A stretch of 64,000 nt of DNA from positions 26,373 to 90,372 of the forward strand of contig JAJQIJ010000001.1 of assembly GCA_021199275.1 (NCBI GenBank), written 5' to 3'. The first letter of the stretch is position 1, and every line of letters starts with the position of its first letter. Made by a program: the position numbers and the translations under genes. The notes under the pieces are model-generated. The model did not search any database. It had not been told where the DNA came from and was given only the letters and a program-made list of their open reading frames with translations. This DNA comes from Clostridiales bacterium. GTDB taxonomy: Bacteria > Bacillota > Clostridia > Oscillospirales > Acutalibacteraceae. This document shows positions 20,287 through 58,310 of the stretch, one piece after another.

Positions 20287-20308
20287 AATAATGCAAAAGT
20301 TTATTTTT

Positions 20309-20405
20309 ACTTAGGCGGAATGTTGCCCGCCTCGTAAAGCTTCGGGGTCCGACTTTTAATCAGCGGCGAGTACAATTTCCCGCCGGAGGGGCGGCAGCGG
20401 CTGTC
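20309..20405 (+). repeat. Intergenic dispersed repeat copy A
   Basis: Shares ACTTAG...CGG.AATGT..., CAGCGG..A.TACAATTTCC, GGCAGCGGCTGTC with 58165-58254. Confidence 0.7.
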
Positions 20406-20466
20406 ACCCCGCGTTGAATCACGGCAAGCCGTTATTGCACAGCGTCAGCCGGCCGGAAATTCAGCC

Positions 20467-34575: not shown

Positions 34576-34593
34576 CGCGGCGAAATTTGCAAA

Positions 34594-34650
34594 AACTTAA
34601 TTGGAATTCCCTGTCTAATCTATACAGACGGCGGGGCTTTTGCCCGGCAA
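34594..34650 (+). repeat. Intergenic dispersed repeat copy D
   Basis: AACTTAATTGGAATTCCCTGTCTAATCTATACAGACGGCGGGGC resembles copies C and E. Confidence 0.5.
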
Positions 34651-34741
34651 AGCGGGGGGGGCTGAACGCACCAGTCTGCCGCAGCATAGGCTTTGCGGAT
34701 TTTCGGGGCAGGAACTAAATTAACTTGAATTTTTAAGTGAG

Positions 34742-49140: not shown

Positions 49141-49926
49141 ATGAGCAAGGAAAATAAAATAAAAAGAATTGTGGTAAAGGTGGGCACTTCCACCATAACG
49201 CATAAAAACGGCAAAACAAATATTGCAAAGCTGGCGAAGCTCGCGTCTGTGCTGTCAGACCTTAAAAATGCCGGCTATGAAATAATATTGGTTTCATCAG
49301 GCGCCATTGCGGTGGGGCTGGGCAGGCTCAAGCTGCCTGAAAAGCCGGCAGACATTAAGTGCCAGCAGGCGGCGGCGGCAGTCGGCCAGTGCGAGCTCAT
49401 GTTTTTATATGACAGGCTGTTTTCTGAATATGACGTTGTGGTGGCTCAGCTGCTTTTCACAACCAACGAACTTTATAACGAAGAAAGCAAGGCGCATTTA
49501 ATTGACGCGTTTAACCAGCTGATTCAATATGACACACTGCCCATTGTAAATGAAAACGATTCTGTGTCTGTTGACGAGCTGCTGTGCGGCGACAACGACG
49601 TGCTTTCGGCAATCGTGGCGTCTCTTATAGATGCCGATTTGCTTGTTATTTTTACCGACACAGACGGGCTTTATGACATGAACCCGGCGCAAAACGAAAA
49701 CGCAAAGCTTATAAGCAGGGTGCATAATATTGACGACAGCATTATTAAAGCCGCCGGCGCCGCCGGTGAAAAGGGCACGGGCGGCTTTTTAACAAAAATA
49801 AAAGCGGCGCAGCTTGCAACTAAAAACAAAATTCCGGTGGTTATTGCAAACGGCGAAAAGCCAACTGCCATTTATTCAATATTAAACGGCGAAAATGTGG
49901 GAACTTATTTTGAGGTGAATGACTGA
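49141..49926 (+). CDS. proB: Glutamate 5-kinase (start revised)
   Basis: VVKVGTSTITHKNGKTN, LVSSGAIAVGLGRL, NENDSVSVDELLCGDND, GTGGFLTKIKAA. Confidence 0.95.
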   Translation: MSKENKIKRIVVKVGTSTITHKNGKTNIAKLAKLASVLSDLKNAGYEIILVSSGAIAVGLGRLKLPEKPADIKCQQAAAAVGQCELMFLYDRLFSEYDVVVAQLLFTTNELYNEESKAHLIDAFNQLIQYDTLPIVNENDSVSVDELLCGDNDVLSAIVASLIDADLLVIFTDTDGLYDMNPAQNENAKLISRVHNIDDSIIKAAGAAGEKGTGGFLTKIKAAQLATKNKIPVVIANGEKPTAIYSILNGENVGTYFEVND

Positions 49927-51164
49927 TGAAAACAATTTCCGAAAACGCGCTCGGCGCAAAATATTTTCTGTCAGGGGTAACGTCGGCGCAAAAAGACAAG
50001 GCGCTCACCGCCATATCGCACGCAATTCGTGAAAATTGCGGCTATATAATTCAGGAAAACGCCAAAGACATTGAAAATGCGCAGTCGGCGGGCATGCCCG
50101 GCGGGCTTGTTGACAGGCTAATGCTTAATGAAAACAGGGTGCTTGCCATGGCAGACAGTGTGCTTGATATAGTCAGCCTGCCTGACCCTTGCGGCCGAAT
50201 TTTAAGCGAAAACACACATAAAAGCGGAATAGTTATTAAGAAAATCAGCGTGCCGCTGGGCGTAATCGGCATTATTTATGAGTCGCGCCCGAATGTCACG
50301 GTTGACGCGGCGGCGCTTTGCTTTAAAAGCGGAAACGCTGTTATATTGCGCGGCGGAAAGGAAGCTATTTATTCAAACACCGCCCTTGCAGACATTATGC
50401 GCCGGGCGCTCAAAGACAGCGGCTTTGACGAAAACTGCATTCAGCTGATAAAAGACACGTCAAGGCAGTCTGCCGTTGAACTTATGACTTTAAATTCCTG
50501 CCTTGACTGCCTTATTCCGCGCGGCGGCAAAAGCTTAATTAAAAGCGTTATAGAAAATTCAACGGTGCCGGTTATTGAAACAGGTTCGGGTAACTGCCAT
50601 ATTTATGTTGATGAATTTGCACAGATTAAAATGGCTGCCGAAATAATATTTAACGCCAAAACGCAGAGAATAGGTGTGTGCAACGCCTGCGAAAGCTTAG
50701 TAATTCACAGCTCTGTTATCGGCAAGGCGCTGCCCGCAATTAAAGCGCTTTTAGACGAAAAGTCAGTTGAAATCAGGGGGGACGAACGGGCCCAAGCTGC
50801 ATGCAGCGGAATAATAGCGGCAGCTGAAGACGACTGGGGGCGCGAATATCTTGACTATATTATAAGCGTTAAAACTGTTGACAGCGTTGAAGAGGCAATA
50901 AAGCATATAAACAAATATTCAACGCACCACAGCGAAGCCATTATAACCGAAAACGCAGAAAACGCGAAATTGTTTCTTGAAAAGGTTGATTCGGCGGCGG
51001 TTTATTTAAACGCTTCCACCAGGTTTACTGACGGCGGCGAATTCGGCATGGGCGCTGAAATCGGCATTTCCACGCAAAAGCTGCACGCAAGGGGCCCAAT
51101 GGGGCTTGAGGAGCTCACCACATCAAAATATGTTGTTACGGGCAGCGGGCAAATAAGAAAATAA
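49926..51164 (+). CDS. proA: Glutamate-5-semialdehyde dehydrogenase
   Basis: VPLGVIGIIYESRPNVTVDAAALC, ETGSGNCHIYVD, GPMGLEELTTSKYVV; ATGA overlap with proB. Confidence 0.96.
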   Translation: MKTISENALGAKYFLSGVTSAQKDKALTAISHAIRENCGYIIQENAKDIENAQSAGMPGGLVDRLMLNENRVLAMADSVLDIVSLPDPCGRILSENTHKSGIVIKKISVPLGVIGIIYESRPNVTVDAAALCFKSGNAVILRGGKEAIYSNTALADIMRRALKDSGFDENCIQLIKDTSRQSAVELMTLNSCLDCLIPRGGKSLIKSVIENSTVPVIETGSGNCHIYVDEFAQIKMAAEIIFNAKTQRIGVCNACESLVIHSSVIGKALPAIKALLDEKSVEIRGDERAQAACSGIIAAAEDDWGREYLDYIISVKTVDSVEEAIKHINKYSTHHSEAIITENAENAKLFLEKVDSAAVYLNASTRFTDGGEFGMGAEIGISTQKLHARGPMGLEELTTSKYVVTGSGQIRK

Positions 51165-51206
51165 CTTAGTGTGAAATGTCCCCGCCTATACAGGCGGCGG
51201 GGGGCC
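51164..51206 (+). repeat. Intergenic dispersed repeat copy C (overlaps proA stop codon)
   Basis: ACTTAGTGTGAAATGTCCCCGCCTATACAGGCGGCGGGGGGCC; aligns with copies B and D. Confidence 0.6.
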
Positions 51207-51233
51207 AATTTGATTTTAGGTGGAACGTGAAAA

Positions 51234-52679
51234 GTGGACAAATATAAAAAGCTTGCATCTAACACAATAATATTTGCAATAGGAACTTTTTCTTCAAAAA
51301 TTCTGTCTTTAATTCTTACCTTTTTTTACACAAGAGTTTTGGACACCGGCTCCTACGGCGGCGCCACGCTTATTCAAAATGCCGTAAATATACTTGTGCC
51401 CATTGTAACCCTTGCGGTAAATTCCGCCGCGCTGCGTTTTGCCATTGACAAAGACAGCAATAAAAAAAGAGTATTTACAACAGGCCTTGCCACCACCCTT
51501 ATAGGCTTTGCAATTTTTTGTTTGTTTTCACCTGTTGTTGCAAAAATAAATATAAACGACTTTAACATGGGGCAATACGCCGTGCTGCTTTATGTTATGC
51601 TGCTGGGCTCGTCTTTAAGGCAGCTGTGCCAGCAGTTTGTAAGGGGCAGCGGGCATGTCAAACTCTTTGCCGTTGACGGGGTAATAGCTACAGCCACATC
51701 TGCCGGGTTTACATTTTTATATCTCGGCGCGTTTCATTGGGGCATTTACGGCTATATTCTTGCTATTTTTACAAGCGACATGCTTTCGGTTTTGTTTCTT
51801 TTTATCGGCGCAAAGCTGTGGAAATATGTTGATTTTAGGCATTCGCTGAAAAAAGACACGGTAAGCCCAATGCTTAAATATTGCATTCCGCTGATTCCCA
51901 CAATTATTTTGTGGTGGATTATAAATGTGTCAGACCAATATATGGTAACATATTTTATAGGCGTTGCAGAAAGCGGGCTTTACACTTCCGCTTATAAAAT
52001 ACCGAACTTTATTATAATATTCGCCTCAATTTTCATTGACGCATGGCAGCTTTCAATAGTAGACGAATATCAAAGCGAAGACAAGGCAAATTTCTTTTCA
52101 CGCGTGTTTTCGTTTTACAGCGGCACACTGGTAATAATAGGCGCGCTGCTGGTTACGTTTTGCCGTGTAATAACTTCGGTTTACCTTGGCTCAGATTATT
52201 ATGATTCATGGCATTATGTGCCGATTTTGCTTATAGCAACGCTGTTTTCTTGCCTTGTAAACTTTTTTGCGTCAGTTTACATGGCGGAAAAAAAGAGCAC
52301 CCTTTCAATGGCAACTGCCTGCGTTGGCGCAGTTGTAAATGTTGTGCTCAATTTGGTTTTGATTCCGACATACAGCTCTTACGGCGCGGCCGTTGCAACG
52401 GCAACGTCTTTTATAGTTGTGTTCATAATAAGAATTTTCAACACGCGGCAGTTTATAAAGCTTAAAACAAACTGGGCAAAATTTCTGCTGTCTGTGGGCA
52501 TATTGGCTGCCATGTGCGCCGTTACCATGCTGGAAATTGCGGGGCAGTGGCAAAGCATGGCTATTTGCTGCACCGGCACAGCTTTAATTGCGGCACTCAA
52601 CTTCAAGTCGCTTTTAGGGGTGCTTAAAATGCTGTTTGACAAATATCTTAAAAAATTCGTAAAAAAGCGCCGCTCTTAA
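51234..52679 (+). CDS. Oligosaccharide flippase/polysaccharide biosynthesis (MATE-like) protein (GTG start)
   Basis: KLASNTIIFAIGTFSSKILSLILTFFYTRVLDTGSYGGATL; ~12-14 TM. Confidence 0.9.
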   Translation: MDKYKKLASNTIIFAIGTFSSKILSLILTFFYTRVLDTGSYGGATLIQNAVNILVPIVTLAVNSAALRFAIDKDSNKKRVFTTGLATTLIGFAIFCLFSPVVAKININDFNMGQYAVLLYVMLLGSSLRQLCQQFVRGSGHVKLFAVDGVIATATSAGFTFLYLGAFHWGIYGYILAIFTSDMLSVLFLFIGAKLWKYVDFRHSLKKDTVSPMLKYCIPLIPTIILWWIINVSDQYMVTYFIGVAESGLYTSAYKIPNFIIIFASIFIDAWQLSIVDEYQSEDKANFFSRVFSFYSGTLVIIGALLVTFCRVITSVYLGSDYYDSWHYVPILLIATLFSCLVNFFASVYMAEKKSTLSMATACVGAVVNVVLNLVLIPTYSSYGAAVATATSFIVVFIIRIFNTRQFIKLKTNWAKFLLSVGILAAMCAVTMLEIAGQWQSMAICCTGTALIAALNFKSLLGVLKMLFDKYLKKFVKKRRS

Positions 52680-57131: not shown

Positions 57132-57204
57132 CACTTTGAGGCATTTGTGATAATATAGCCTAAGAAAATGTTCAAGTTCTTTCTGCCGGCCGGCGTTTTT
57201 GCAC

Positions 57205-57257
57205 ACGCCAAGGGCGGGGCAGCCGCGCCATTGCGTGGGAAAATTTCCAATTAAGTT
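57205..57257 (-). repeat. Possible intergenic dispersed repeat copy E (minus strand)
   Basis: AACTTAATTGGAAATTTTCCCACGC resembles D and B. Confidence 0.4.
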
Positions 57258-57274
57258 ATTAAGGAAAACGCTTT

Positions 57275-58165
57275 ATGCTTACAATATTATGGGGCGCGCA
57301 GACGCATTATAAAAAATTAACTAAAAAACATAGCCCGCATTTTGACTGCCATGTAAAAAACAGCGTGGCAGACGGGGTGCATCTTAACTGTCGCCCTGTT
57401 AAAAAAAGCGAAATTGCCGAACTTAGCGAAGCTCTTGTCGTAATAGGCTACGGAAAAAAGGAAAGCTGCTTAAGGGTTGTTGATTTTTGCAAGGAAAACG
57501 GCATTAAATACACCCTGCTTGATATTTTTATGGGCAAGGCAATCACTGCTGAAATGATAGCCAAGCTCGGCGGCAGCTTTACAGATGAAAACAATAACAC
57601 CGTAATAATAGACGGCGGCTCTCATCTTTGCGGGCCGATTTATGTAAAATTTAAAAAAGACACAAAAAATGCCGTTGTAGACATTGAAAAAATAAGCGTT
57701 GAAAAAGGCATGTTCATAAATGTCAAGGGCAAAAACGCCCGTGTAAAAATTCACTGCGGCAGTTATTTTTACGATGTTAATATTCGCTGCTGTACAAACG
57801 GCAAAATTGAAATAGGAGAGAGCTGTTTGTTTTCGCATGGTGTTGAGCTCAGCCAGTCAGACCAGCACTGTATTTTTGACTTAAATACGCACGAAAGAAT
57901 TAACTGGGCAAAAGATATAAACATAGGAAACCATGTTTGGGTCGGCAGGTCTGTGCACCTGCTCGGCGGCGCAAACATAGGCAACGGCTGCATTTTGGGC
58001 GATTCCTGCGTCACCAGCAGCACTTTCAGCCCTAATTGCGTTATTGCCGGCAATTCCGGCAGGGTAATCAGGGAAAACGTTATTTGGTCTCGGGATTCAA
58101 TTCGCTATAACGACGCAAAAACTTTAGAAGACTGCAAAGATAAGCGCGGGCTTGACTATTTATAA
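57275..58165 (+). CDS. Left-handed beta-helix (hexapeptide) acyltransferase
   Basis: INIGNHVWVGRSVHLLGGANIGNGCILGDSCVTSSTFSPNCVIAGNSGRVIRENVIW. Confidence 0.88.
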   Translation: MLTILWGAQTHYKKLTKKHSPHFDCHVKNSVADGVHLNCRPVKKSEIAELSEALVVIGYGKKESCLRVVDFCKENGIKYTLLDIFMGKAITAEMIAKLGGSFTDENNNTVIIDGGSHLCGPIYVKFKKDTKNAVVDIEKISVEKGMFINVKGKNARVKIHCGSYFYDVNIRCCTNGKIEIGESCLFSHGVELSQSDQHCIFDLNTHERINWAKDINIGNHVWVGRSVHLLGGANIGNGCILGDSCVTSSTFSPNCVIAGNSGRVIRENVIWSRDSIRYNDAKTLEDCKDKRGLDYL

Positions 58166-58254
58166 CTTAGCGGGAAATGTCCCACGCCTCTGCAGGGGGG
58201 CATTTTTAGTCAGCGGTTAATACAATTTCCTGCTGATGAGTGGCAGCGGCTGTC
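58165..58254 (+). repeat. Intergenic dispersed repeat copy B (overlaps acyltransferase stop codon)
   Basis: Shares conserved blocks with copies A and C. Confidence 0.7.
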
Positions 58255-58310
58255 GCTTGCCGGAGCCCGGCGGAATAAAGCAATTGCTTAAAAAACAAAC
58301 ATTGCTTCAT

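Follow-up and report, generated by a model that had tools for sequence, protein, structure and literature searches.

Results

A structured intergenic repeat recurs throughout the genome

The window analyzed here, a 64,000-nt stretch of DNA, contains between its genes several copies of a structured repeat (Table 1). The best-preserved, copy A, scored 110.2 bits (E 4e-28) over 20306–20439 with covariance model R1. Copies B and C each stand directly at the stop codon of a gene and scored 67.3 bits (E 1.6e-16; model match 58162–58271) and 35.4 bits (E 6e-8; model match 51161–51279), respectively. Model R1 was built from 30 copies found by BLASTN, and the alignment of these copies with their flanks also defined the extent of the element, which starts at ATAA|CTTAGG and ends in ...GGGCAAGCCCTTATTGAA. 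The first-pass annotation had placed A and B in one family on the basis of their shared sequence and had seen no ORF inside; both statements are borne out. Its coordinates were slightly off, as A occupies 20310–20439 and B, which lacks the 3' hairpin, occupies 58166–58261. It also saw too short an element: the repeat is 132 nt long, bipartite and terminated by a hairpin beyond the right edge drawn at 20405. Among the shorter relatives that it listed, C is a genuine 5' fragment, while D and E are present where they had been placed but are indistinguishable from chance.

Table 1 Features of the element family and of the second repeat family (window positions unless a contig or locus is named).
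Feature	Position	Strand	Description
Copy A, target position	20306–20309	+	TTTA, versus ATAA in most copies; from the sequence and the left-end profile over 45 copies
Copy A, unit X	20310–20418	+	P1 left arm, P2, P3 (loop TACAAT), P4, P1 right arm, end GTTGAA
Copy A, unit Y	20419–20439	+	3' hairpin CGGCAAGCCG + TTATTGCA; unit defined by solo copies in G251
Copy B, target ATAA	58162–58165	+	TAA is the stop codon of gene 57275–58165
Copy B, unit X without unit Y	58166–58261	+	Loop deletion in P2; from model R1 and alignment
Copy C, target ATAA	51161–51164	+	TAA is the stop codon of gene 49926–51164
Copy C, 5' fragment only	51165–51204	+	Left arm and P2 hairpin; from model and sequence
Copy D	34592–34700	+	10.3 bits, E 0.35; not significant, at most a decayed remnant
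Copy E	57134–57259	−	9.9 bits, E 0.47; not significant, at most a decayed remnant
Abutted RE–LE junctions	Home genome C33:16850, C38:108638; G021 loci L064, L068		Second left end directly after the right end
~276-bp MITE copies, home genome	C9:27133–27408, C38:153347–153626, C29:46355–46630, C9:58275–58549		Second repeat family

Copy number was determined across the 1.86-Mb genome from which the window derives (the home genome). BLASTN with copy A as the query returned 40 copies at E < 1e-10, and the covariance model returned at least about 134 copies at E < 1e-3 and at least 147 matches at E ≤ 1; roughly 1% of the genome consists of element copies. The same model had no match in 38 of the 40 genomes searched, the home genome being one of the 40, and the count is therefore not the product of a loose model. 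A family limited to A and B, which would have undone the first-pass annotation, is thus not what the genome holds. Individual copies deviate from the consensus by 4 to 31%, and the youngest pairs are 98% identical, which together indicate activity spread over time. Of 77 copies in the stretches read, none is contained in a called gene; where match and gene overlap, the longest overlaps measure 37–68 nt. The first description of the family as non-coding, structured, dispersed and intergenic holds.

The family does not appear to have been catalogued. Rfam 15 gave no match at gathering score in the window; across the element in loci L006, L025 and L031 it gave none even with hits up to E 5 admitted. 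Phage and plasmid records and IMG/VR patterns contained no match to the element, and a literature search, with most subscription papers outside its reach, returned no description of the family.

The element is a chain of hairpins built from two units

A profile over 45 home-genome copies placed the left end at ATAA|CTTAGG and the right end at TTATTGAA|, with no conservation outside these ends except for A/T before ATAA. The element consists of unit X, in which a P1 stem closes around hairpins P2, P3 and P4 before the end TTGAA, and a short unit Y. In genome G251, an active carrier, Y is 24 nt long and comprises the hairpin GGGGC-AA-GCCCC followed by the right end. The two units meet at GTTGAA|TGAC, so that the motif T[AT][TG]AA is common to the target, the X/Y junction and the right end. 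Comparison of the ends by eye revealed no terminal inverted repeats (CTTAGGCAAG versus TTCAATAAGG, the latter being the right end as its reverse complement). Imperfect hairpins are instead located subterminally, P2 near the left end and the Y hairpin at the right end. When the sequence alignment was folded with RNAalifold, only P3 and P4 were recovered, and structures were afterwards drawn by hand. At some loci the right end of one element is immediately followed by a second left end, either a stub or a copy (Table 1).

Insertion occurs 3' of TATAA without target duplication

The element abuts the 3' side of (T)ATAA, and the TAA of this target frequently also terminates a gene. In 14 of 77 copies it serves as the stop codon of the gene upstream, compared to 104 of 3107 ATAA sites in intergenic DNA (odds 6.4, p 5e-7). 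Element and upstream gene point the same way in 50 of 70 cases and in opposite directions in 20; all these counts are approximate, as the genes were called by our own codon-bias ORF calling.

An empty site was provided by a second repeat family, which carries CCTAAAGCTATAATTTTAGCACC: four full copies have this sequence uninterrupted, and two others have it with slight changes. At C2:1789–1929, this repeat is split by the element exactly after ATAA, and the rejoined flanks, CCTAAAGCTATAA^TTTTAGCACC, equal the uninterrupted form in the four full copies, with 0 gaps over 58–63 nt and no base duplicated or lost. Target duplication at this site is 0 bp; the alternative reading, a 2-bp AA duplication, arises because AA closes both the target and the right end. 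The second family is itself a ~276-bp MITE with terminal inverted repeats CTTAAGCAATCGGG...CCCGATTGCTTAAG (Table 1).

The spacer between glnS and typA is 5–126 nt long and element-free in the relatives read; in the home genome it is 186 nt long and the element starts directly after the glnS TAA. Other AT-rich insertions of ~100 nt are present between glnS and typA in two congeners (L118 in G007 and L120 in G002). The atp-operon locus of G251 was also considered as an empty site and was unusable, as the gene order differs.

The element lies on the G-rich strand at a ratio of ~2:1 (50:27 in the home genome and 28:12 in G251), a bias that is confounded with gene direction: insertion into the lagging-strand template would give a bias of this sense, and genes point the same way.

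A 24-nt hairpin also stands alone

G251 contains 102 matches to the right end and ~100 near-identical copies of the element. In the 1.17 Mb (58%) of this genome that was read, a strict pattern recovered 36 full elements, all preceded by ATAA and 35 by TATAA, with an unconstrained right flank. Unit Y, TGACGGGGCAAGCCCCTTATTGAA, which forms the last 24 nt of the G251 element, is also found alone at 18 places with unrelated flanks. Directly upstream of 17 of these 18 solo units is TATAA, a motif with a background of 3.9 per kb counted on either strand. Three elements end in a tandem duplication of the same 24-mer, and two solo units are present in the home genome (C9:124147 and C29:69564). Given that its last 24 nt also stand alone, the element can be described as a multi-hairpin unit joined to a REP-like 24-nt hairpin. 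From the identical sequence, common target and unrelated flanks, we infer that the solo units probably moved on their own. At one of them (G251:C3:347, L233), the TATAA target is the −10 box of a promoter-like TTGATT-17-TATAAT, and TATAAT is kept after insertion.

Orphan left and right ends in the 58% of G251 enclosed no gene; most proved to belong to full copies that the pattern had overlooked or to solo Y units. Inspection by eye of the genes between neighboring G251 elements revealed no transposase-like gene.

Sister families share the fold and covary in their stems

With the covariance model, the element was detected in only one of 24 congeners, G021, as seven weak copies. Of 395 other genomes from the order, 10 contained sister families; these genomes belong to five GTDB-like families and usually have several copies each. 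The sister families have the same fold and ends with different stem sequences and are absent from most close relatives. The shared plan begins with the target ATAA, CTTAGGCAAGATG and hairpin P2 (CCCGCC-TCTA-GGCGGCGGG), continues with a P3 stem of changing sequence with the loop TACAAT and a variable hairpin P4, and closes with CTTGCC, which pairs with GGCAAG to complete P1, followed by CACGTTGAATGACGGGGCAAGCCCCTTATTGAA.

Between families, 5 of 7 stem positions in P1, 16 of 16 in P3 and 7 of 10 in P4 changed on both sides; in P1, for example, the compensated arms are ACGACTG/CAGTCGT in G390 and ACATTTG/CAAATGT in G021. Arm pairing within versus between families was 0.94 versus 0.58 for P1, 0.88 versus 0.53 for P3 and 1.00 versus 0.58 for P4 (14, 0 and 0 of 2000 permutations, respectively), with the within-family figure somewhat inflated by delimiting the arms by eye. 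Home-genome copies displayed no excess of covariation (0.116 versus 0.111 for shuffled copies; 95 of 500). Because the stems covary between families and not among copies of one genome, selection seems to operate on the source copies, with their offspring decaying in place. Such a pattern would fit a mobile element with decaying offspring rather than a conserved host RNA.

An exact-pattern scan of public genomes also located a single copy at L031:774–911 (JAJQBJ010000118.1, Oscillospiraceae MAG C.2_5) that is up to 92% identical to home-genome copies and may reflect horizontal transfer or a mis-binned contig. A pattern match in Propionivibrio was taken as chance, as its surroundings contained no other part of the element.

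Candidate enzymes in carrier genomes

The home genome, which is 98.7% complete, contained neither Y1_Tnp (PF01797) nor a TnpB zinc ribbon (PF07282) at E 0.001, and no RAYT (TnpA_REP) gene was found there or in G251. Among the 11 other carriers, a Y1 match at E 0.01 was obtained in six, with one of these six falling short of the family's cut-off; the remaining five gave no match at this threshold. Carriage of the element is therefore not linked to carriage of Y1. None of the Y1 elements read in congeners and carriers (G251 at 58%) has the ends of the element. At L194 in G251 (C13, ~43.6 kb), an IS605-type element with tnpA and tnpB, the tnpB frame being cut by TAA, is located after TTTAA|C; its left hairpin CCCCTACCTCTAAGGTGGGG resembles P2, which makes it a lead, but its right end has no match.

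Discussion

Mechanism and alternatives

A fixed 5' oligonucleotide, the absence of target duplication and of inverted repeats, and subterminal hairpins match single-strand transposition of the IS200/IS605 type. On balance, and with considerable reserve, we favor a non-autonomous hairpin-chain element that travels as single-stranded DNA and relies on an HUH (Y1) transposase of the IS200/IS605/REP type acting in trans. The transposase would read the subterminal hairpins and cut after T[AT][TG]AA in three places: the target, the X/Y junction and the right end. Either X+Y or Y alone would be excised and then inserted behind a TATAA, with a preference for the template of the lagging strand. Copies would persist mainly at harmless sites, in many cases immediately behind a stop codon, and would decay thereafter.

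Movement by a different enzyme, either a recombinase with an AA core or reverse transcription through a folded RNA intermediate, deserves attention although we consider it unlikely. It would accommodate the lack of a Y1 transposase in the home genome and about half of the carriers, and the AA at both junctions. An RNA intermediate would also suit a fold that is stable as RNA (z −4.7 and −6.2) and a P3 loop, TACAAT, that is kept across families while its stem changes. However, the target is only TATAA, without the further sequence needed by guided or site-specific recombinases. Neither a poly-A tail nor a 5' truncation series, as reverse transcription would lead one to look for, was seen, and retrotransposition fits poorly with the solo 24-nt unit.

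The solo unit also allows a bolder form of the single-strand reading, which we regard as doubtful. The element would be a bipartite single-stranded element in which the 24-nt hairpin alone is a complete transposable unit, and the HUH enzyme would either be missed by PF01797 or reside outside these genomes. TATAA and TTGAA would then be equivalent cuts, allowing modules to be added, lost or moved separately.

That the repeat is a host-functional structured RNA or 3'-UTR element (an mRNA stabilizer, terminator or regulator) multiplied for its function is improbable, and the label of RNA element offered by the first-pass annotation accordingly finds little backing. Its intergenic position, strong hairpins, enrichment at stop codons and predominant co-orientation with the upstream gene are what such a role would predict. 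However, 20 of 70 copies point against the upstream gene, no shared neighboring gene was seen, and copies in the home genome lose pairs without compensation. The element is moreover absent from most congeners, one copy is inserted inside another repeat, and Rfam has no match.

A classical MITE, with terminal inverted repeats and a DDE transposase, was another of the labels first proposed and is very improbable. The element resembles one in being small, non-coding, intergenic, high in copy number and patchy across the tree, but its ends are not inverted repeats, 0 bp is duplicated at the empty site, and the element bears little resemblance to the true inverted-repeat MITE family in this genome. 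Fortuitous similarity between GC-rich intergenic regions would explain D and E, which score no better than chance, but is refuted for the family by the 40 BLASTN copies at E < 1e-10 and a model specific enough to find nothing in 38 of 40 genomes.

The element represents a patchy family across an order of gut Clostridia, occupying ~1% of one genome and present in one species as ~100 near-identical copies plus solo 24-nt hairpins. It therefore offers a usable system for asking what the smallest transposable DNA unit is and which enzyme moves it. The family also accounts for structured, unannotated stretches behind stop codons, which might otherwise be taken for regulatory RNAs.

Comparison with known systems

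REP-like and IS605-derived repeats are most familiar from Proteobacteria, cyanobacteria and archaea. REPs and REPINs are hairpins of 20–50 nt with many intergenic copies, both solo and composite, and are considered non-autonomous units that related enzymes move as single strands (PMC8266576, PMC3116915). Unit Y, a 24-nt hairpin, is of this kind, and REP-like is the closest of the three labels given at first. The label holds only in part, as the foot of unit Y is TGAC instead of the GTAG or GTGG at the 5' foot of REPs, and the REP-associated transposase is missing. In addition, no inverted REP pairs were seen in the family, a multi-hairpin unit X of ~110 nt is attached, and a fixed TATAA target lies 5' of the unit.

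IS200/IS605 elements insert 3' of a short fixed oligonucleotide without target duplication and have subterminal hairpins instead of inverted repeats (PMC6006769). PATEs, the palindrome-associated transposable elements derived from them, resemble the present element in target, lack of duplication and subterminal hairpins. However, no resident IS was found to share both ends of the element, there are more hairpins than the usual one per end, and the 3' hairpin also occurs solo. The element thus appears to work like a REP or a PATE but fails defining features of both, having no GTAG foot, no RAYT and no same-ended IS.

Two further systems were compared by description only. The small dispersed repeats of cyanobacteria, reportedly described by Elhai in 2008 (a study cited in PMC3733652) as very small non-coding mobile hairpins of about 21–27 nt, share with unit Y its very small size, mobility and lack of coding capacity; they belong to another phylum, and the small unit here additionally forms the 3' terminus of a longer element. 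BOX-like repeats of streptococci are likewise modular, structured, intergenic and high in copy number, and the present family differs from them in its modules and in its defined target.
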